A stretch of DNA of 34,930 bases. It comes from a bacterium. GTDB lineage: Bacteria > CAIWAD01. Made by a program: the position numbers and the translations under genes. Below are positions 21,949 to 31,706 of this stretch, piece by piece. The stretch is taken from assembly GCA_030429345.1 (NCBI GenBank), contig JAUIFJ010000033.1:1-34930 (forward strand), in the 5' to 3' direction. The notes beneath the pieces were generated by a model. The model was not told the origin of the DNA. It did no database searches and was given only the letters and a program-made list of their open reading frames with translations. Position 1 is the first letter of the stretch. The number at the start of each line of letters is the position of its first letter.

Positions 21949-22268
21949 ATCCCGGGGAGCAGGAAGAGCGATGCATATAGTGTTCAGCACGGTTATCTGC
22001 TTGCTCGTCGACTGTCCCATGGAAGCGAATCCGGCAGACCGCCCCTTGCATGATCTGAAAGAAGCAGCCCATCCAGGAGCACTTCGCCTGGCTGCACTCG
22101 AGGAGCCTGGAGGAATGCGAAGACCTGCTTCAGGCGCACTCCGATTGCCTGAGGAGGAAAGAGTCCCGGACCTGAGAGAAATCGCGCTCCCCTTTCGGTT
22201 CTTGTCCCGCGCCTCGTGCTACCCTAGCTTTGGCTGAAACGCCGCCACTCGAACAGCCAGGATTCCGC
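21949..22268 (+). other. intergenic stretch with a possible decayed small reading frame
   Basis: No intact gene is called in these 320 nt. An 88-codon frame (21971-22237) has AGGAAGAG before its ATG, but its third positions are AT-rich over the second half. A different frame, 22059-22172 (38 codons after a TGA at 22056), has strongly GC-rich third positions and protein-like content (IQEHFAWLHSRSLEECEDLL) but lacks a start codon. It may be the remnant of a small gene. Confidence 0.3.
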
Positions 22269-24413
22269 ATGTCTTCCCAGATCCCCTTTCGCCCCTGCCG
22301 ACAGAGCCTTGGCCTGTTCCTGCTCGTGCTGCTAGCGGCGGCCTCTGCCGCGAGCGCCCAGCGCCTGTCCCTGGACGATAAGAGCCGGGAGGCTGTTGCA
22401 AGCGGCATTCTCCTGGACCTGGCCACGGATCTTGCCGGCGCCGGGCACTATGACGGGCTGCAGGAGGCGGTGCCTTTGAGCGCATCGGCTTTCCGGCAGC
22501 TGCTTTTCCAGGTGAATCACGCACGCGTGGACGGACCCGCCTTTCCCCGGGCGGCCCGCTTGCGCGAATTGGCGCGCGAGGGCAAGGACCGGGGAGTGAT
22601 TCCCCTGGCCCTGCTGGATCTCGAAGTCCAGCGCGTGCGGGAGTCGGCGCTGCAGGAGGGCACGGTCCTGCTCGAGGAGCAGCGCCTGCAGATCGAGGAT
22701 CCTTCCGCTCTGGAGAAGCAGCGGCTGTTTGCCGCCGCGGCTCTGCTGGAGGAGACCTATCGGGGGTCCGCCGTCGACTTCGCCCTGCCCGAAGGGGAAG
22801 GCTGGATCACGAACCGCCCCGAGCCGCCCCTGAAGCTGGAATGGGATTTCGACGACGGCAGCGGCTTCGTGTCACACCAGGCCGGCGAAAAAGTCCGTGT
22901 GCGCTACCGGGAAACGGGCGAGAAGATCCTTCGCCTGCGCACCACCTGGGCCGACGGCGATGTGCGTGTGACGCGCCTCCGTTTCACGGTGCAGCGCATG
23001 GATACGCCCTCGCCGACCGCGGTCTGGGACCTGGTGGCGGAAGAATCCTATGCCGGCGCCGTCGCCGCGGGAAACGCCTACCTCTACCTGGCGCCCGGTC
23101 ACACGCAGCTGACCCGCCCGGTCGTGCTCTGTGAAGGCTTCGACATGGACAACACCATGGACTGGGAAGAGCTCTACGAGCTGGGCAACCAGCAGGACCT
23201 GGTCGAGATCCTGCGCCAGCTGGGCTTCGATTCGGTGGTGCTCAACTTCGACGAATCCACCGACTACATCCAGCGCAACGGCCTGCTGCTGGCCACCCTG
23301 CTGCAGCAGATCGACGCCGTGATTCCCGCCGGGGAGGACTATCCCCTGATCGGGGCCAGCATGGGCGGGCTTGTCTCACGCTATGCCCTGGCCTGGATGG
23401 AGCAGCAGGGAATGGATCACCGCGTGCGCACCTTTGTCTCCTTCGATTCGCCGCAGACCGGGGCAAACATTCCCCTGGGCATGCAGTACTGGCTGGGCTT
23501 CTTCGCTTCCGAGGCGGAGGAGGCGGCCTATTTCATTTCCCGCCTGCAGACGCCGGCGGCCCGGCAGATGCTGCTGGCCCTGGCCGGGAATCCGCCGAAC
23601 CCGAATCCCGGGGCGCACCCCCTGCGTGCTACACTGCTCGGCGAACTGGACGCGCTGGGCGGCTATCCTGCCCTTCCGCGCCTCGTGGCCGTGGCCAACG
23701 GCAGCGGCAGCGGCCTGGACCAGGGCTTCGCCGCCGGCGCGCAGATCATCCGCTGGGAGTACCGCAGCCTCTTCATTGACATTGACGGCAATGCCTGGAG
23801 CCTGGCGGACAACGCGTCGCAGACGATTTTCCGCGGCGAGATCAACCTGATCTGGCCCCTGCCGGATACGGACCAGACCGTCAGCATCAACGGCGCGCCG
23901 CCCTGGGACAATGCTCCCGGCGGCCTGCGCGGCTCGATGGGCGACCTGGACGCCAGCGCCGTGCCCTACGGCGATGTGATCGCCCTGCACGAGAACCACT
24001 GTTTCATTCCCACCACCAGCGCGCTGGGCCTCGATTCCGGCGAGCCCTTCCGCCCCATCGAGGGAGCAACGGATGTGTATACGCTGACGCCCTTCGACTC
24101 GCTGTATTACCCGACAGGCCTCAACCAGGAGCACGTGGAGATCACGGAAGAGTCCCTGTGGTGGTTCCTCGGAGAGATCGTTCCCGAGCTGCCCGCCCCG
24201 CAGCTGGCCATCGAGCGGACGGAAGAAGGCCTGCAGCTGAGCTGGACCGCGGTGCCCGCGGCGCGCAGCTACCGCGTCGAGCAGACGATGGATCCCTCGA
24301 GCTGGCCGGCGACCTTCCTGAGCACGGAAGCGCTGAGCCTGCAGCTGGACGAGGAGCAGGCGCGGGGCTTCTTCCGTGTGACCGCCTCGCTGGACCCGGT
24401 GGCGGGGCGCTGA
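22269..24413 (+). CDS. secreted alpha/beta-hydrolase (lipase-like) with PKD-like domain
   Basis: This is 714 aa. ATG 22269 is chosen for AGGA 8 nt upstream and a signal peptide (residues about 1-30, ending AASAASAQ). A helical region is followed by a PKD-like domain (about 190-245: LKLEWDFDDGSGFVSHQAGE). The hydrolase fold begins near residue 275: PVVLCEGFDMDNTMDW, then the nucleophile elbow GASMGG with Ser364, FVSFDSPQTGANIPLG for the acid region, and ENHCFIPTTSAL near residue 580 with a probable catalytic His. A short FN3-like segment (LQLSWTAVPAARSYRV) ends the protein. Unlike the other secreted proteins here there is no NPFNP sorting module, so it may stay periplasmic or use another route. 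Substrate is unknown; esters or lipids are likely. Confidence 0.85.
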   Translation: MSSQIPFRPCRQSLGLFLLVLLAAASAASAQRLSLDDKSREAVASGILLDLATDLAGAGHYDGLQEAVPLSASAFRQLLFQVNHARVDGPAFPRAARLRELAREGKDRGVIPLALLDLEVQRVRESALQEGTVLLEEQRLQIEDPSALEKQRLFAAAALLEETYRGSAVDFALPEGEGWITNRPEPPLKLEWDFDDGSGFVSHQAGEKVRVRYRETGEKILRLRTTWADGDVRVTRLRFTVQRMDTPSPTAVWDLVAEESYAGAVAAGNAYLYLAPGHTQLTRPVVLCEGFDMDNTMDWEELYELGNQQDLVEILRQLGFDSVVLNFDESTDYIQRNGLLLATLLQQIDAVIPAGEDYPLIGASMGGLVSRYALAWMEQQGMDHRVRTFVSFDSPQTGANIPLGMQYWLGFFASEAEEAAYFISRLQTPAARQMLLALAGNPPNPNPGAHPLRATLLGELDALGGYPALPRLVAVANGSGSGLDQGFAAGAQIIRWEYRSLFIDIDGNAWSLADNASQTIFRGEINLIWPLPDTDQTVSINGAPPWDNAPGGLRGSMGDLDASAVPYGDVIALHENHCFIPTTSALGLDSGEPFRPIEGATDVYTLTPFDSLYYPTGLNQEHVEITEESLWWFLGEIVPELPAPQLAIERTEEGLQLSWTAVPAARSYRVEQTMDPSSWPATFLSTEALSLQLDEEQARGFFRVTASLDPVAGR

Positions 24414-24505
24414 CAGGCGGCAGCCCGGGGCGCGGAAGCTCAGGTAGGGCTCCTGCTCCCCCCCCGATGCGATTTCAGCTGTGCGGGGCTGTTGTGCCCT
24501 GGCAT

Positions 24506-24533
24506 CTTAGATGATATGGGCTTATCATCTAAG
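24506..24533. promoter_or_regulatory. perfect 11-bp inverted repeat, likely metal-regulator operator of the zinc operon
   Basis: CTTAGATGATA (24506-24516) and TATCATCTAAG (24523-24533) are perfectly complementary with a 6-nt spacer TGGGCT. The repeat is AT-rich in a GC-rich genome and ends 2 nt before the first start codon of the zinc-uptake operon. A dimeric metalloregulator (Fur/Zur or ArsR/SmtB-like) is the natural candidate, though the sequence does not match the classical Zur or Fur boxes. TATCAT (24523-24528) inside the right arm could be a -10 box, which would place transcription start at or next to the ATG. Confidence 0.65.
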
Positions 24534-24535
24534 TC

Positions 24536-24850
24536 ATGCGACTGAGGCTGGACAAGAAATGGCACCTGCTGCTGCTGTTCTACTACATGGGCCTGGTGGG
24601 GACGCTCGATCTGCACCACACCCATGGAGTGGATGCCTGCTGCGCCGATGCCCAGGAACTGGCGGGTACTGAGGATCCCTGTCCGGTCCTGCTCCTGCAG
24701 GCGGGCCTGGGAGACGAAGCCCTGCTTCGACCGCAACCGCTCCTGCCGGAACTCGTCGTCGTGTCGCACCCGCGCCGAATCCCGGCACCTCATTCCACCG
24801 CGCCGATTCTCCATTCCGGCAGAGCGCCACCTGCCCCTACCTTCCATTAG
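24536..24850 (+). CDS. small His/Cys-containing envelope protein heading the zinc operon
   Basis: This is 104 aa. The N-terminal MRLRLDKKWHLLLLFYYMGLV is a signal or anchor sequence. It is followed by LHHTHGVDACC and by CPVLLLQAGLG, then a Pro-rich tail ending HSGRAPPAPTFH. The layout (signal, metal-ligand cluster, CPxxLLQA, RAPPA tail) recalls short DUF2946-like or similar small proteins found next to metal-transport genes. High third-position GC supports coding. No ribosome site precedes the ATG because the inverted repeat occupies that place, so a leaderless or structured start is possible. It probably binds metal in the envelope. The exact family was not identified. Confidence 0.7.
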   Translation: MRLRLDKKWHLLLLFYYMGLVGTLDLHHTHGVDACCADAQELAGTEDPCPVLLLQAGLGDEALLRPQPLLPELVVVSHPRRIPAPHSTAPILHSGRAPPAPTFH

Positions 24851-24944
24851 AGGTTGGGTGAGTCCCGCATTTCCTCCTGGAAGGCAGGAAATCGGGAAGG
24901 CAGCGCGTGCTGCGTGGTTTCTGAATCGAATGAGGACTCTTGGA

Positions 24945-25760
24945 ATGAATCGCTTTTTTCGCGGCAGGCTTCTGCCGCTGACCCTTCTTCTGGCGGGAGC
25001 CCTGTTTGTCTCCTGCGACGATGACGACAATCCCGCCTCCGAACATGGCGAGCACCTGGACGCCATCGGTGTGGCCCTGGTGATGGCGGGGGACACCCTG
25101 GTCAAGGCCGAGGGCACGACGGTATCCGGCGAGCTCGAGGTGCACGAAGGCGAGACCCTTGGGCCGCTGCTGGTGCATTTCCTGAGCGACGAGGGCGAAT
25201 GGTTCCGTCCCGACGCGGACGCGGGCAGCGAGTACAGCCTGGATGTCGACGCCAATGGCCTGGTCGTCCATGTGGACGTGAATGCGGCCGACTGGTCCTT
25301 CACGGTCGAGGGCGAGGAAGAGGCGGAAACCGTGCTGGTGATCCACATCCTGCACGAGGACCACGCGGACTACACCAGTCCCGAGCTGCCGCTGCATGTG
25401 CATCACACGGAAGGCGCGCACGGCGAGCCTGTTGGCATGCGCCTGCTGGATGCCGATTCGACGATCGTGCTCGAGACCTTCGCCGACCAGTCGGTCTCCG
25501 GCGAGCTGGAAGTCCCCCTGGGCACGACCGTGATGCTCGAAGCCTGGTTCGTCGACGACGAGGGCGTCGTCTTCCAGCCCGAGGACGACCACAGCCTGGG
25601 CGTCACCGAAGAGACCGGCGGCATCCTGGGGATCACGGTCACTGGCTGGAACCTCGACCTGGAAGGGCTGTCGGCAGGGCACGAGCACCTGGTCTTCGAT
25701 GTGCTCCACGGCGGGCATTCCCATTTCACCAGTCCGGAAGTTCATGTCGACGTGGACTAG
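24945..25760 (+). CDS. His/Asp-rich two-repeat lipoprotein of the zinc operon
   Basis: This is 271 aa. ATG 24945 is chosen over ATG 24930 because GAGGA lies 9 nt before it and the signal is cleaner: MNRFFRGRLLPLTLLLAGAL then the lipobox-like FVSC. After the Cys come DDDDNP and an acidic linker with EHGEH. Two tandem repeats of about 110 residues follow: VHFLSDEGEWFRPD ... ILHEDHADYTSPELPLHVHH and AWFVDDEGVVFQPEDDHSLG ... VLHGGHSHFTSPEVHVDV. Each ends in a His-rich strand plus (Y/F)TSPE. It is probably a metal-binding surface or periplasmic lipoprotein that passes zinc to or from the receptor encoded next, whose gene overlaps its end by 17 nt. No family name was recognised. Confidence 0.82.
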   Translation: MNRFFRGRLLPLTLLLAGALFVSCDDDDNPASEHGEHLDAIGVALVMAGDTLVKAEGTTVSGELEVHEGETLGPLLVHFLSDEGEWFRPDADAGSEYSLDVDANGLVVHVDVNAADWSFTVEGEEEAETVLVIHILHEDHADYTSPELPLHVHHTEGAHGEPVGMRLLDADSTIVLETFADQSVSGELEVPLGTTVMLEAWFVDDEGVVFQPEDDHSLGVTEETGGILGITVTGWNLDLEGLSAGHEHLVFDVLHGGHSHFTSPEVHVDVD

Positions 25761-28014
25761 ATTTTTTTGCTGCATCCGGCCCGGGGTTCTCCTCGGGCCG
25801 GGTCTGTTTTTTCTGCTGCTATCGCAGGCGGCGGCGCAGGGCTCCGGGCCGCATCCCTGCGGCGTGATCGAAGGCGTGATCCGCGACGACGCGGGCCGTG
25901 CCCTGCCCCTGGTCCAGGTCGAGCTGCCGGAACTCAGGCAGGGCGGCTACACGGATGCGCGCGGGGAAGTCCGCCTGCTGCACGTGATCGCCGGAAGCCA
26001 CAGGCTGGTGATCAGCCACGTGGGCTACCACACGGAAGTGCGGGAGGTGGAGGTCGCCGTCGGTGATACGACCCGCCTTGAGTTGGAGTTGCATCACGAG
26101 GCCGTGCGCCTGGAAGATATCCATGTACACGGGGACCACCGGCTCGAGAGCCTGCACGAACCGGATCTCAAGCGCCGCTCCGCGGAGATCCAGCAGGAGC
26201 TGGGCCTGACCCTGGCCGAGACCCTGCAGGAGGAAGTCGGCATCAGCAGCCGGACCATGGGCCCCGCGCCGGCCCGTCCCGTGTTGCGCGGCCTTTCCGG
26301 CAACCGCCTGGTCCTGCTGGAGGACGGAGCCGCCACCGGCGATCTCTCGGCGACCAGTTCGGATCACGCGGTGGCCATCGATCCGATCGGCGCTCGCAGC
26401 CTCGAGCTGTTGCGGGGACCGGAAAGCATGCTCCTCGGCTCGGGCAGCGTGGCGGGAGTCGTCAACGTGGAGCGCGGACTGATCGCCGCTCAGCACAAGG
26501 ACAAGCCCTCCTGGGTCGCCAGCCTGAACGGGGACAGCGGAACAGAAGGACTGGGGAGCGCCCTGCGCCTGGAAACGCCCCTGCGCAGCCTGGACCTGGT
26601 GCTCGACGCCACGATGCGCAACACGGGAAACCAGCGCACGCCCGTCGAAACCCTGGACAACAGCAGCCTGCAATCCCTGGGGTTGGGGGGCGGCCTGGCG
26701 CTGAACCGGGACCACTGGAGTGCCGGCCTGGCCCTCAACCACTATCGCAGCGACTACGGCATTCCCGGCGGCTTCGTCGGCGGGCATCCCGAAGGCGTGG
26801 ATCTCGAGATGCGCACCTCGCGCCTGGAGCTGCAGGCGCAGCGCCGCCTGGCCGCGGGTCCGGTCCACCACCTGCAGCTGCAGTCGAGGCTGGCGCGCTA
26901 CTACCACGCGGAATATGAAAGCTCCGGCCGGCTGGGCATCGACTTCGGCGTGCTCTCCGCCGAACATTCCCTCGAGTTCGGACTGCGGCCGCATCTGGGC
27001 TTTCACCAGGGACGCCTGCGGCTGGAGATGAAGCTGCGCGATTTCGCCACCGGCGGGATCAGCCACGCCCCGGACACGGACGAGCTCTTCCTGGCGGCCG
27101 GCCTGTTGGAACACATCCAGCTGAAGGAGTGGCACGCGAGCTTCGCCCTGCGCATGGAGCACCAGCGGATCACGCCCGACGAGGAGCGGAACAGCGTCGT
27201 CGTGGGGCACATTCGCGAACGGAGCATCCAGGGTGCGGGCCTCGCGCTGCAGCTGGACGCGCCCCTTGCCGAGGCAGGACCCTTTCGAATCCAGACCAGC
27301 CTCGAAGTGATCCGCGGCTGGCGCGCCCCTTCCGTGGAGGAACTCTTCAGCGGCGGACCGCACCTGGCCGCTTATTCCTACGAGATCGGCAATCCGGAAC
27401 TGGAGGCGGAAAGCTCCCTGGGCCTGGAACTGCCGGTGACTTTTCATTGGCACGGAGGCGAGCTGCGTCTGAGCGCCTACGCGACCGACTTCGAAGGATT
27501 CATTTTCCCCTCCTTCACCGGGCAGTTCTCGAGCCGGCGCGCGGACCTCTACGAGTACCGCACGGTCGGTCGGGACGCCCGCTTCCGGGGCCTGGAGTGG
27601 TCGCAACAGCAGAAGCTGGGCCGGTGGGAGCAGGAATCCCGCCTGAGCCTGACCCGCGGCGACCTGAAGAGCGGCGGACACCTGCCCGAGATCCCGCCCC
27701 TGCAAGGCCTTTTCTCGCTGGCCCGCCAGATGGATGCCTGGCGCTATGGCCTGTCCCTGGTCTGGGCGGATCGGCAGGACCGCGTATACAAGGCCGAGGA
27801 TCCCGCGGCGGTTCCCGAGGCGAACACCGCCGGCTGGGTGCGCCTGGACGCGAAGGTGCTCTGGCGCTACCGGGCTTTCGGGGCCTACCAACAACTGCAG
27901 TTCGAGGTCGAGAATGTCTTCGACCGAGAGTACCGCCAGCACCTGAGCCGCATCCGCAGCGTGATGCCCGAAGGCGGCCGCAGCCTGCGCATCACCTGGC
28001 GCAGCTGGTGGTAG
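25744..28014 (+). CDS. ZnuD-like TonB-dependent outer-membrane receptor
   Basis: This is 756 aa. ATG 25744 overlaps the lipoprotein gene by 17 nt and has GGAAG upstream. A long signal peptide (to about residue 32, ...LLLSQAAAQ) precedes a carboxypeptidase-regulatory-like domain (about 38-125). The plug carries LSGNRLVLLEDGAATGDLSA and then SSDHAVAIDPIGARSLELLR with Asp207-His208, the pattern of the ZnuD zinc-receptor class. The barrel ends in an aromatic strand (ITWRSWW). The extracellular part contains His-rich stretches. It likely imports zinc across the outer membrane. The plug motif and the His-rich neighbours support zinc over iron, but this is inference from family and context. Confidence 0.9.
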   Translation: MSTWTRFFCCIRPGVLLGPGLFFLLLSQAAAQGSGPHPCGVIEGVIRDDAGRALPLVQVELPELRQGGYTDARGEVRLLHVIAGSHRLVISHVGYHTEVREVEVAVGDTTRLELELHHEAVRLEDIHVHGDHRLESLHEPDLKRRSAEIQQELGLTLAETLQEEVGISSRTMGPAPARPVLRGLSGNRLVLLEDGAATGDLSATSSDHAVAIDPIGARSLELLRGPESMLLGSGSVAGVVNVERGLIAAQHKDKPSWVASLNGDSGTEGLGSALRLETPLRSLDLVLDATMRNTGNQRTPVETLDNSSLQSLGLGGGLALNRDHWSAGLALNHYRSDYGIPGGFVGGHPEGVDLEMRTSRLELQAQRRLAAGPVHHLQLQSRLARYYHAEYESSGRLGIDFGVLSAEHSLEFGLRPHLGFHQGRLRLEMKLRDFATGGISHAPDTDELFLAAGLLEHIQLKEWHASFALRMEHQRITPDEERNSVVVGHIRERSIQGAGLALQLDAPLAEAGPFRIQTSLEVIRGWRAPSVEELFSGGPHLAAYSYEIGNPELEAESSLGLELPVTFHWHGGELRLSAYATDFEGFIFPSFTGQFSSRRADLYEYRTVGRDARFRGLEWSQQQKLGRWEQESRLSLTRGDLKSGGHLPEIPPLQGLFSLARQMDAWRYGLSLVWADRQDRVYKAEDPAAVPEANTAGWVRLDAKVLWRYRAFGAYQQLQFEVENVFDREYRQHLSRIRSVMPEGGRSLRITWRSWW

Positions 28015-28069
28015 GGGGACAGAGGCATTCGAACAACTGCACAGTACTATTAATTGTGAGACAGAGCCG

Positions 28070-28789
28070 ATGAGCCCTCCCGTGATCCAGGTCGAAACCC
28101 TGCAGCACCGCTACCAGGATGCGCGCGGCCAGCTGCTGCTCGATCTGCGGGTCGAGGCCTTCGAGCTGCCGGCGGCGGCCCAGTGTGCCGTGTCCGGGGC
28201 CAGCGGCGTGGGCAAGACCACCTTCATGAACCTGTTGGCCGGGCTGCTCCCGGTACAGGGCGGCAGGCTGTCGATTGCCGGGGAGGCGCTCAGCGAGGCG
28301 GGCGAGGCGGCGCGGGATCGTATACGCGGACGGCATATCGGCCTGGTCTTCCAGCGCTTCCACCTGCTGACGGGCTTCAGCGCCTTCGAGAACCTGCTGA
28401 TCGCCCAGAACTGCGCGGGCAGCCATGATCCCGATTTCGCGGGCGAACTGCTCGAGCGGCTGGGGCTTTCCTCCCATCGGAATCAGCCTCCGCACCGCCT
28501 CTCGGCGGGGCAGCAGCAGCGCCTGGCGCTGGCCCGTGCGCTTGCCAATCGACCGCGCATCGTCCTGGCCGACGAACCCACGGGTAACCTGGATCCCGAC
28601 ACGGCGGCCCTCGTCATCGGGACCTTGAAGGACCTCTGCCGGGACCAGGGTGCCGCCCTGCTCATGATCACCCATGACGCCGGCATTGCCGGAAGCTTCG
28701 CGGAACAGTACCGCCTGGGGCTGCAGGACGGCATCGCGCGACTGCAGCGCCTGGAGGCGGCAGGGCACTCCGGAAAGGAAAGGGCATGA
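28070..28789 (+). CDS. ABC transporter ATP-binding protein (MacB/LolD-like)
   Basis: This is 239 aa, cytoplasmic. Walker A is GASGVGKTT (about residues 43-51), the Q-loop lies in GLVFQRFHLL, the signature is LSAGQQQR, Walker B is IVLADEPTGNLD and the switch His is in MITHD. These features and the short length fit the MacB/LolD subgroup that works with a FtsX-like permease. Its stop overlaps the permease start as ATGA (28786-28789), so the two are translationally coupled. Similar pairs occur in zinc-regulated loci such as V. cholerae zrgABCDE and P. aeruginosa PA4063-PA4066 (recalled from literature). A zinc-related role is inferred from the neighbours. Confidence 0.93.
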   Translation: MSPPVIQVETLQHRYQDARGQLLLDLRVEAFELPAAAQCAVSGASGVGKTTFMNLLAGLLPVQGGRLSIAGEALSEAGEAARDRIRGRHIGLVFQRFHLLTGFSAFENLLIAQNCAGSHDPDFAGELLERLGLSSHRNQPPHRLSAGQQQRLALARALANRPRIVLADEPTGNLDPDTAALVIGTLKDLCRDQGAALLMITHDAGIAGSFAEQYRLGLQDGIARLQRLEAAGHSGKERA

Positions 28790-30054
28790 AGCGGCCTCGT
28801 CCTATCGGCGTCTTCGGGCTGGCCCGGCGAAGCATCCTGCATCACCGCCTGACGACAGTCGTGACCCTGCTCTCGGTGGCGATGGCCACGGGCCTGGTGA
28901 TGGCGGTCTTCGCGCTGCAGGACCAGTCCCGCCGGGCCATGGAGCAGAGCCATGGCGGCTTCGACGCCGTGCTCGGCACGCGCGGCAGCCCGCTGCAGCT
29001 GGTGCTGAACGCGGTGTATCACATCGAGAACTCGCAGGGCAACCTGCCCTGGTCCGTATACAAGGCGATCGAGGCCGATGGGCGGGTCAAGGAGGCGGTC
29101 CCGCTGGTTCTCGGCGACAATTATTTCGGCTACCGCATCATTGGCACCTCGACGGAGCATCTGGACGGGAACGGCAAAGAGGGCGAGCCCCGATTCGACT
29201 TCGCCGCCGGTCGCCGATTCGATGCAGGCAAACGCGAGGCCGTCCTGGGAAGCATCGTCGCGGACAGGTTGGGGCTGGCGGTCGGGGACACGATCCAGCC
29301 CTATCACGGCCTTGTCTTCGATCCGGGACAACAGCACCAGGAACTCTATCCGGTTGTCGGTGTTCTGGAGCCGAGCGGCACCCCGGGAGACCGGGTGATC
29401 TGGGTCTCACTGGATGCGGTCTTCCGCATGGAAGGGCATGTGCTGCGCGGCAGCGGGGAGGTCTACGAACCCAGCGAGGGGCAGGCGATCCCCGATGCGC
29501 ACAAGGAGGTCAGCGCTGTCCTGCTGAAGCTGAAGAGCCCGCAGGCCGGGTTCTCCCTGGACCAGACCGTCAACCGGCAGGGCACCGTTGCGACCTTCGC
29601 CTGGCCCATCGGCACGATCGTGGTCGACTTCCTCGACAAGGTCAGCTGGGTTGGGCGCTTGCTGGCGGTGGTTGCCGCCATGGTGATGGTGGTCGCGGCC
29701 GCCACGATCTTCGCCGGCATCGCCTCCTCGCTAGGGCAGCGGCGGCGGACCTTCGCCATCCTGCGCGCGCTCGGCATGCGGCGGCGACGGATCGTCGCGC
29801 TGCTCCTGGCCGAAGCGGTTCTTCTGGCCACTGCGGGCGCGGTGATCGGCTACCTGGTCTACATCTGCCTGGCCCTCGTCGCCTCCTCCGTCCTGCGCCA
29901 CCAGGTGGGAGTCGTGCTCTCGCTGGAAGGCAGTCTCTGGACCCTGGTGCTCGCCCCGCTGGTGATGGTGGCTCTCGGTGTGCTGGCAGCCGTCGTGCCG
30001 GCCCTGCGCGCATATACGACCGATGTAGTCGGAGAATTGACCGACAGAACCTGA
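28786..30054 (+). CDS. FtsX/MacB-like ABC transporter permease
   Basis: This is 422 aa. One N-terminal transmembrane segment (TTVVTLLSVAMATGLVMAVF, about residues 23-43) is followed by a large periplasmic domain (about 45-285) with the MacB-type signature (SHGGFDAVLGTRGSPLQLVL). Three C-terminal membrane segments follow, near 290-310 (LLAVVAAMVMVVAAATIFAG), 345-370 and 390-410. The cytoplasmic loop RRRTFAILRALGMRRRRI is typical of the family. The ATG overlaps the ATPase stop. MacB-type transporters usually move substrates by mechanotransmission in the periplasm, so the complex may power metal transfer or extrusion of a metallophore-like product rather than classical import. Confidence 0.92.
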   Translation: MKRPRPIGVFGLARRSILHHRLTTVVTLLSVAMATGLVMAVFALQDQSRRAMEQSHGGFDAVLGTRGSPLQLVLNAVYHIENSQGNLPWSVYKAIEADGRVKEAVPLVLGDNYFGYRIIGTSTEHLDGNGKEGEPRFDFAAGRRFDAGKREAVLGSIVADRLGLAVGDTIQPYHGLVFDPGQQHQELYPVVGVLEPSGTPGDRVIWVSLDAVFRMEGHVLRGSGEVYEPSEGQAIPDAHKEVSAVLLKLKSPQAGFSLDQTVNRQGTVATFAWPIGTIVVDFLDKVSWVGRLLAVVAAMVMVVAAATIFAGIASSLGQRRRTFAILRALGMRRRRIVALLLAEAVLLATAGAVIGYLVYICLALVASSVLRHQVGVVLSLEGSLWTLVLAPLVMVALGVLAAVVPALRAYTTDVVGELTDRT

Positions 30055-30067
30055 GGAGAACCGGAAC

Positions 30068-30604
30068 GTGATACACATCCTCTTGCGGGCCTTCCTGGCG
30101 ACCTGTGTCCTGCTTGCGGCCGGGCGACTGGTGGCCGACGACTTCGATCCGGCGATTCAGGCCGGGCATACGGGCTGCGATCACGTGCATTCCGCGCCCC
30201 ACGGCGGGACGCTGATCCCCCTGGGCGACCACTTCGGCCATGCGGAACTGCTGCTGGATCCAACCAAAGGGCGCCTGCGGCTCTTCGTGCTGGACGCGCA
30301 TGCGGAGAAGGCGATCCGGATCGGCGATCCGATGCTCCAGGTCGCTCTGCTGAGCATTGAGCACAAGGCGGTCGATGCCGAGCTGCTGGAACTGCAGGCC
30401 GTGGCCAGCCCGTTGACCGGGGAGAAGGTCGGGGACAGTTCCGAGTTCACGGGTACACACGCGGCCCTTCTCGGGAAGACGAGCTTCAGCGGTCGCCTGC
30501 AGGCCATTCATCTGAAAGGGATCGCCTTCGAGAATGTCGCTGTCGAGGCTGTTGCCCAGGATGCTGAAATCGGGCAGGCAAAGGAAGCAGGGCATGATCA
30601 CTGA
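30068..30604 (+). CDS. His-rich periplasmic metal-binding protein
   Basis: This is 178 aa with a GTG start at 30068 behind GAGGAG (9-nt spacing). A signal peptide (MIHILLRAFLATCVLLAAGRLVA, first 20 residues typical) is followed by clustered histidines: GHTGCDHVHS, PHGG, GDHFGHAELLLD, LDAHAEKAIRI, and a C-terminal GHDH. The HGGxLxxLGDHxxHxEL...LDAHAEKAIRI pattern recurs in predicted periplasmic proteins beside metal transporters; it occupies the place of the His-rich DUF2796-like partner in zinc-regulated loci. The ATG of the next gene lies inside its end (11-nt overlap). Likely a zinc chaperone or buffer in the periplasm. Confidence 0.83.
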   Translation: MIHILLRAFLATCVLLAAGRLVADDFDPAIQAGHTGCDHVHSAPHGGTLIPLGDHFGHAELLLDPTKGRLRLFVLDAHAEKAIRIGDPMLQVALLSIEHKAVDAELLELQAVASPLTGEKVGDSSEFTGTHAALLGKTSFSGRLQAIHLKGIAFENVAVEAVAQDAEIGQAKEAGHDH

Positions 30605-31277
30605 TCCTCGAATGCAGGTATCACGCGGAAGCTCCCGACGGAAGCCGGCCTTCCTTGCGATCCTGTTCCAGGCCTTCCTGGTTGCCGGAGCGCTGCTGTT
30701 GGCTCCGCAGCCGCCTGCGGCATGCGCCGATTCCCTGGCTGTGTCACTCAACACACAACAGGGCAATCCGGAACTGCGCTGGGAGAAGATGGACGCCTAT
30801 TACTACCGCGAAATGAGCTTCGAGCATCTCAACGATTTCGAGTACATCCCGCCGGGCGGCGCCAGGGTCGACTACCTGACTCCGCCCGTGCCGGAGGACG
30901 GGGGCCTTCCCTTCAAGGAGCGCTTTCCCGGGCGTATACGGGACCTTGACGGCCAGCGGATCGCCATTCCAGGCTTCCTGATGCCCCTTGACGGACGGCC
31001 GGATGCGATGACCAGTTTCGCCCTGGTGCGCAGCATGGCGATCTGCTGCTACGGTGTCGCACCGAAAGTGACCGAATGGATCATGGTCGAGGCCCGTCCG
31101 GAGCAGAAGCTTCGCTATTACAAGAATGTCCCCGTACTCCTGCGCGGTGTGCTGAAGTACAACGAAGTCGTCGAAGAGGGCTGGGTCATCTCCCTGCTCG
31201 AGATGAAAGCGGACGAACTGGAAAGGATCAGCCGCAAGGACCTCGAGGCCTATTACGAGCGGACGGGAGTGCAGTAG
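30594..31277 (+). CDS. DUF3299 family exported protein
   Basis: This is 227 aa from ATG 30594, which overlaps the preceding gene by 11 nt and has AAGGA 8 nt upstream. Residues about 15-45 are a signal sequence (KPAFLAILFQAFLVAGALLL then PAACA). The DUF3299 core is recognisable: IRDLDGQRIAIPGFLMPLDG, FALVRSMAICCYGVAP and KNVPVLLRGVLKYNEVVEEG. The family is small, periplasmic and OB-fold-like. Members sit at the end of MacB-type zinc-regulated operons. The Cys-Cys pair in ICC could bind metal. It is the last clear gene of the zinc unit. Confidence 0.88.
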   Translation: MITDPRMQVSRGSSRRKPAFLAILFQAFLVAGALLLAPQPPAACADSLAVSLNTQQGNPELRWEKMDAYYYREMSFEHLNDFEYIPPGGARVDYLTPPVPEDGGLPFKERFPGRIRDLDGQRIAIPGFLMPLDGRPDAMTSFALVRSMAICCYGVAPKVTEWIMVEARPEQKLRYYKNVPVLLRGVLKYNEVVEEGWVISLLEMKADELERISRKDLEAYYERTGVQ

Positions 31278-31337
31278 GGGGAGGCGGCACGTCGGAAAAG
31301 ATGTAACCGGGAGCATCACACAGGCCATCGGAATGTC

Positions 31338-31706
31338 TTGCTGTCCGGCATTGCCTACGTCCGCCTGGTCTTCGACGGCCCTATCCTCGAACCCAAGGAC
31401 CTGGAGCACCTGAGCCGCGTCGTCGACCGCCACTTGCGAAACCTGCGGGCCACGCCGAAGGAGCAGCAGGAAGCCAGGTCGACGGGAGATCGGGACAGTA
31501 GCCTGCCCGGACCCGCGGGCCTGCAGGCCGCAGCGATCCTGGAGCGCGTACGGGTCAGCCTGTCTGCCAGTCAGCTGCAGGCCCTGGCCGGCGGAACAGG
31601 CTCCCAGGCCCAGGCGCCTGAACCAGGCGAAGTCGAGGTAGAAGACCCGGAGTTCCCGGCGCCTCGCCGGGCTGAGCCAGACGATGAAGACGACCTGTTC
31701 GACTGA
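31338..31706 (+). CDS. small protein of unknown function with acidic tail
   Basis: This is 122 aa, with no ATG or GTG available. TTG 31338 is the only plausible start and has no ribosome site, so the 5' end is uncertain. It lies 60 nt after the DUF3299 gene in the same reading frame. The N-terminal half (IAYVRLVFDGPILEPKDLEH) looks like strand plus helix. A second helix (LQAAAILERVRVSLSASQLQ) follows, then a Pro/Glu-rich linker and the acidic end PDDEDDLFD. Codon use is GC-rich like the host. No family was recognised. It could be a small partner protein or the remnant of a larger one. Confidence 0.45.
   Translation: MLSGIAYVRLVFDGPILEPKDLEHLSRVVDRHLRNLRATPKEQQEARSTGDRDSSLPGPAGLQAAAILERVRVSLSASQLQALAGGTGSQAQAPEPGEVEVEDPEFPAPRRAEPDDEDDLFD

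Follow-up and report, generated by a model that had tools for sequence, protein, structure and literature searches.

A putative CruR-like arrest leader precedes a His-rich lipoprotein and a ZnuD-like receptor in a predicted seven-gene metal-uptake operon

We analysed a window of 34,930 nucleotides, the whole of contig JAUIFJ010000033.1 from a bacterium of the CAIWAD01 lineage. It contains a seven-gene unit whose first gene probably encodes a metal-responsive ribosome-arrest leader of the CruR kind, placed at the head of an outer-membrane metal-uptake unit to which a zrg-like module is joined. The leader reading is drawn from a C-terminal RAPP motif and a cysteine spacing that reproduce the CruR geometry. 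The metal sensed and transported is quite probably zinc, as the receptor site, COG0523-type GTPases and the zrg-like genes all suggest. A broader proposal stands just short of an even chance, namely that a class of zinc-sensing arrest leaders (HxH...C...R[AGS]PP), together with an Ig-like His-rich lipoprotein, controls ZnuD-type uptake in the FCB superphylum and beyond. If this holds, it would mark the first demonstrated case of zinc sensing by an arrest peptide.

The receptor and the zrg-like module

The packed seven-gene arrangement given in a preliminary description of the window was confirmed by the ORF calls. Seven tightly packed ORFs lie on the same strand at 24536-31277 (+), with overlaps of 17, 4 and 11 nt and gaps of 94, 55 and 13 nt. 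They start with ATG at 24536, 24945, 25744, 28070, 28786 and 30594, and with GTG at 30068. The gene preceding them, 22230-24413 (+), encodes a large protein resembling lipases and esterases, which includes a PKD-like stretch, and is apparently unrelated.

24536-24850 (+), gene 1, putative leader peptide, 104 aa, 8 His and 3 Cys
24851-24944 (+), leader-lipoprotein intergenic region, 94 nt, from the ORF calls
24945-25760 (+), gene 2, His-rich lipoprotein, 271 aa, two repeats
25744-28014 (+), gene 3, ZnuD-like TonB-dependent receptor (Pfam, NCBIfam, profile); predicted zinc-site residues D206, H207, E389 and H539, numbered from base 25747 (add 1 from the ATG at 25744)
28070-28789 (+), gene 4, ABC ATPase of LolD/MacB type (Pfam, NCBIfam)
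28786-30054 (+), gene 5, MacB_PCD/FtsX permease (Pfam)
30068-30604 (+), gene 6, periplasmic His-rich protein, 178 aa, signal peptide
30594-31277 (+), gene 7, DUF3299 protein, signal peptide (PF11736, 25.2 bits, cut-off 22)

Pfam recognised the receptor, the ABC ATPase, the MacB/FtsX permease and the DUF3299 protein, and a scan of Pfam and NCBIfam gave no match for genes 1, 2 and 6. Comparison with related genomes indicates that genes 1 and 2 are real, since homologues precede the receptor there in the same order.

A profile built from seven receptors and run against the PDB matched ZnuD of Neisseria meningitidis (4rdr) best, with 225 bits against 103 bits for the copper receptor OprC. ZnuD is thus the closest solved structure, although the window receptor differs from it by an additional N-terminal carboxypeptidase-regulatory-like domain and scores far below the NCBIfam ZnuD cut-off (126.7 bits against 950). 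In an alignment mapped on 4rdr, 79 of 79 receptors share the four zinc ligands of ZnuD (D/H/E/H), and ZnuD residues H100, E340 and H499 fall on conserved columns with a constant offset of 14. The zinc site is printed as D90/H100/E340/H499 (PMC4557270); we take the printed D90 to be D99, since the Asp adjoining H100 is the aligned, invariant one. Read in this way, the D99/H100/E340/H499 site is kept in the window receptor, whereas the four ligands are missing from the OprC alignment. The receptor had been called ZnuD-like at the outset, and both its profile score and these four ligands bear this out; its plug and barrel residues, which could have matched a different ligand class, include the invariant ZnuD ligands. 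COG0523-type GTPases lie near 5 of the 78 receptors described below, mostly in related Latescibacterota-like genomes that are not independent. With the ZnuD profile and ligands, they lend sequence support to the original assignment to zinc acquisition.

The ATPase, permease and DUF3299 genes have counterparts in zrgC, zrgB and zrgE of Vibrio (PMC9817125), and the two-gene MacB-type ABC transporter is common to ZrgABCDE and to PA4063-PA4066 of Pseudomonas. The proposed likeness to zrg loci thus stands for these three genes and fails for the periplasmic protein, which is not recognised as ZrgA (DUF2796). Gene 6 matched nothing in Pfam, NCBIfam or the PDB, its single-sequence structure model reached a pLDDT of 37, and relatives were found in 4 of 279 other genomes. 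A further difference from the known systems is that the module is here joined to a receptor unit. The Vibrio operon has zrgD (DUF2607) next to its promoter (PMC9817125), so that zrg loci themselves may include a small first gene; no DUF2607 protein was found in the source genome. The direction of transport in the known systems is disputed. Because the Pseudomonas counterpart PA4064-PA4065 has been argued to be an exporter (PMC11481552), a role of the MacB-type pair as importer is doubtful by analogy.

Arrest-leader features of gene 1

The leader comprises an N-terminal hydrophobic segment, H28xH30, C49 and RAPP at residues 96 to 99. Its C-terminus reads ...HSGRAPPAPTFH-stop, which places RAPP five residues ahead of the stop.

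24617-24682 (+), putative sensor codons for H28 and H30 (24617-24625) and C49 (24680-24682), from the leader alignment and the Cys spacing
24746-24845 (+), part of the 3' third of the leader that is rich in C and poor in G, putative Rho utilisation region, from base composition
24821-24832 (+), codons of the RAPP arrest motif

Strong ribosome arrest that resists EF-P has been proven for RAPP and RGPP, and RSPP is reported to be only partly permissive for arrest (PMC12992588). We considered the 70 receptor loci with at least 0.9 kb of DNA upstream of the receptor. A short upstream ORF on the same strand ending in R(A/G)PP, with no other filter used, is present in 47 of them, related MAGs in these leader and receptor counts not being independent. 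The motif lies 1 to 7 residues ahead of the stop. RSPP-ending leaders of similar make occur in 10 further loci (L055, L083, L096, L099, L100, L111, L113, L124, L129 and L131), and an R(A/G/S)PP leader is absent from the remaining 13. The motif was found 49 times in 173 kb upstream of receptors and 5 times in 1538 strand-kb elsewhere in the same loci, an 87-fold enrichment of R(A/G)PP-ending ORFs; at least 2 of these 5 are leaders of neighbouring copies of the receptor unit. Permuted motifs used as controls matched in 0 to 10 of the 70 loci. A separate locus set from 290 genomes gave a leader in 14 of 30 loci (15 before L039 was removed, judged spurious by eye). An extra ORF in L023 of that set was likewise rejected as spurious. 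Two loci, L058 and L062, have two leader copies before one receptor (at about 2.0 and 0.75 kb, and at 2.2 and 1.1 kb), which suggests that leader and lipoprotein were duplicated in tandem.

A Cys occurs 45 to 50 residues ahead of the motif Arg in all 63 evaluable leaders, which were chosen without selection for Cys and exclude one truncated leader, and other offsets are far less frequent. Aligning 60 leaders showed that the Arg, both Pro and the Cys are kept, that H28 and H30 are nearly invariant and that little else is conserved; this alignment was selected for Cys, so that the invariance of C49 within it is circular. An H-x-H is present in most leaders. In the window leader, 46 residues intervene between C49 and R96.

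These features are close to those of CruR (DUF2946, Bp2923) in the CruR/bfrG operon of Bordetella pertussis, where RAPP and a CXXC motif, 45 residues apart, switch the downstream receptor by copper through Rho (PMC9426467). Both operons begin with a small exported protein ahead of a TonB-dependent receptor, both leaders have RAPP a few residues from the stop and a metal-ligand Cys about 45 residues earlier, and the C-rich, G-poor leader RNA of the window is comparable to the rut region of CruR. The 100 bases at 24746-24845 are the most C-over-G-rich of the leader and end just ahead of its stop. Their C minus G value of 0.26 is above that of 99.96% of 100-base windows on the whole plus strand, as expected for a Rho site within the leader. 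The window leader differs from CruR in having HxH...C in place of CXXC, with a CC and the single C49 (DPCPV) as its cysteines, and in matching the Pfam DUF2946 profile not even at E 10. The operon differs in having a lipoprotein between leader and receptor and in its ZnuD-like rather than OprC-like receptor.

We infer stalling, metal sensing, the part played by Rho, zinc as the metal, expression as an operon and the role of the lipoprotein from these likenesses, and the following course of events is proposed. Under metal starvation, the ribosome would stall at RAPP, close to the leader's C-terminus, and shield the C-rich leader RNA from Rho, so that transcription would continue into the lipoprotein, receptor and ABC genes. 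The Cys of HxH...C, some 47 residues before the stall, would then sit at about the exit of the ribosome tunnel. When metal is sufficient, HxH...C would bind it, stalling would be relieved and Rho would terminate transcription ahead of gene 2.

The same leader mechanism could respond to copper, the whole unit being a distant CruR-BfrG-like copper-uptake operon. We consider this unlikely. It has in its favour the kinship of the mechanism and the leader geometry with CruR, a CXXC at about the expected position in 23 of 64 leaders and a DUF2946 match at E ≤ 0.01 in 9 of 60 related leaders, DUF2946 leaders being mostly found in copper operons and some of them before OprC-type receptors (PMC9426467). 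DUF2946 genes also occur beside zinc-related efflux genes in Caulobacter (PMC4176598). Against copper, the receptor profile scores more than twice as many bits with ZnuD as with OprC, the four zinc ligands are kept in the receptors and lacking in the OprC alignment, COG0523 GTPases and zrg-like genes lie nearby, and the window leader has no CXXC. It is highly improbable that gene 1 is instead a small secreted structural or carrier protein that binds metal in a zinc-uptake operon: its hydrophobic N-terminus, its His and Cys content and its place in the operon would suit such a protein, but little is conserved beyond HxH, a single Cys and RxPP, which keep a fixed spacing, and arrest has been proven for the C-terminal motif, which is strongly enriched upstream of receptors. 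The preliminary description had counted gene 1 among the uptake components; its features are instead those expected of a regulatory arrest leader.

As a kind, upstream ORFs that carry an arrest motif and precede TonB-related genes are already known. Small secretory proteins ending in RAPP or RGPP have been described before such genes throughout Gram-negative bacteria (Fujiwara et al. 2025, PMC12992588), and the leaders reported here share these properties. That work makes no mention of zinc in its main text, and the HxH...C sensor, the lipoprotein partner and the association with ZnuD are added here. A literature search covering sources outside most subscription journals returned no paper linking such a leader to zinc or to the lipoprotein described here. 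Control of zinc uptake is known mainly through DNA-binding repressors. Zinc sensing by the leader would make nascent peptides a second, translation-based layer of control in many uncultured phyla. The compact HxH...C at a fixed distance from RAPP makes relief of arrest by metal testable by point mutation.

The lipoprotein and the distribution of the unit

AlphaFold2 predicts two Ig-like β-sandwiches for the lipoprotein (pLDDT 87.8, pTM 0.65). A Foldseek search with this model returned generic Ig-like, S-layer and adhesin domains only, with no known metal carrier among them, and Pfam gave marginal Ig-like matches for only a few of the homologues. One repeat is the rule in the family, and two-repeat forms occur in several phyla. 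All of 57 homologues share residues H37, G42, H137, H140 and D142, which include the conserved motif H37, H137xxH140xD142. This H...HxxHxD site probably serves the lipoprotein in capturing metal at the outer membrane or in passing it on. The family is previously undescribed and unannotated, and it gains a clear partner here.

An alignment-based scan of genome contigs revealed 78 related receptor loci; a contig scan with a single receptor as query had found nothing. The records are labelled Latescibacterota, Gemmatimonadetes, KSB1, Calditrichaeota, Ignavibacteria, Rhodothermales, Balneolaceae, Zixiibacteriota and others, and the cultured Fodinibius roseus (L096) is among the carriers of the unit. 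Of the 78 loci, 65 have a lipoprotein homologue, which in nearly every case immediately precedes the receptor, and the window lipoprotein is 44 to 52% identical to the homologues that precede the receptor in related genomes. In G002, G003 and G004, which belong to the family of the window, the lipoprotein stands before the receptor, and the small His/Cys protein precedes it in the two with enough upstream sequence, the G004 contig being too short upstream to judge. No ABC, periplasmic or DUF3299 genes follow the receptor in any of the three, and no relatives of the DUF3299 or periplasmic proteins were found in them. This distribution indicates that leader, lipoprotein and receptor are the widespread part, and that the ABC/periplasmic/DUF3299 module, absent after the receptor in all three family members, is a local addition in the lineage of the window. 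The first two genes had been described as lineage-specific, a view that is nearly reversed by the occurrence of lipoprotein and leader across many phyla. The corrected view of the operon concerns which genes are core and which are added.

The Rhodothermales contig L079 and the similar contig L074 carry a similar ATPase and permease on the opposite strand, at a distance of a few kb from the unit. The presence of zrg-like genes near the unit in these contigs suggests a repeated functional link between the two modules. In these zrg-like regions (L074 6393-8857 and L079 11274-13715, both on the minus strand) the permease has a long His/Asp-rich loop, and a DUF3299-like protein, recognised by eye, and a MerC-like protein are also located near the receptor unit.

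Transcript start and RNA features

24499-24528 (+), candidate sigma-70-like promoter CTGGCA-18-TATCAT, by consensus match only
24506-24533 (no strand), perfect inverted repeat with 11-nt arms and a 6-nt spacer (CTTAGATGATA/TATCATCTAAG), over the -10 box

The candidate promoter is the only promoter-like match on the plus strand within 24300-31500. Its predicted +1 lies at or adjoins the leader ATG, which suggests a leaderless mRNA for the leader. No Shine-Dalgarno sequence precedes this ATG, so that translation of the leader would need a leaderless or weak start. The dyad at 24506-24533 is a candidate operator, possibly for a repressor, and the reading of the transcript start from promoter and dyad is a weak one. 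A genome-wide regulon for the dyad was rejected, as its 26-base core has no second copy in 4.24 Mb with up to 3 mismatches allowed. One FUR-family protein was found in the genome (G000:C65:81749-82087, L143), and its gene adjoins MsrB-like and MarR-like genes.

Purely transcriptional control, in which a repressor on the 28-bp dyad would run all seven genes and RAPP would be a relic, has very little probability in our view: a perfect dyad over the sole promoter-like match and a FUR-family protein in the genome would fit it, but the dyad is single-copy, no copy of it was found upstream of the leader in G002 or G003, and RxPP and the Cys spacing are kept across phyla. A repressor layer and the proposed arrest layer may also coexist.

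No convincing intergenic terminator or special RNA fold was found between leader and lipoprotein, and the predicted fold of 24815-24965 is not stronger than that of shuffled sequences (z = -1.0). A strong terminator-like hairpin of 13 pairs followed by CTGTTTTTTC is located at 25774-25803 (+), within the first receptor codons and directly past the lipoprotein stop. This hairpin could lower the synthesis of the receptor relative to that of the lipoprotein.
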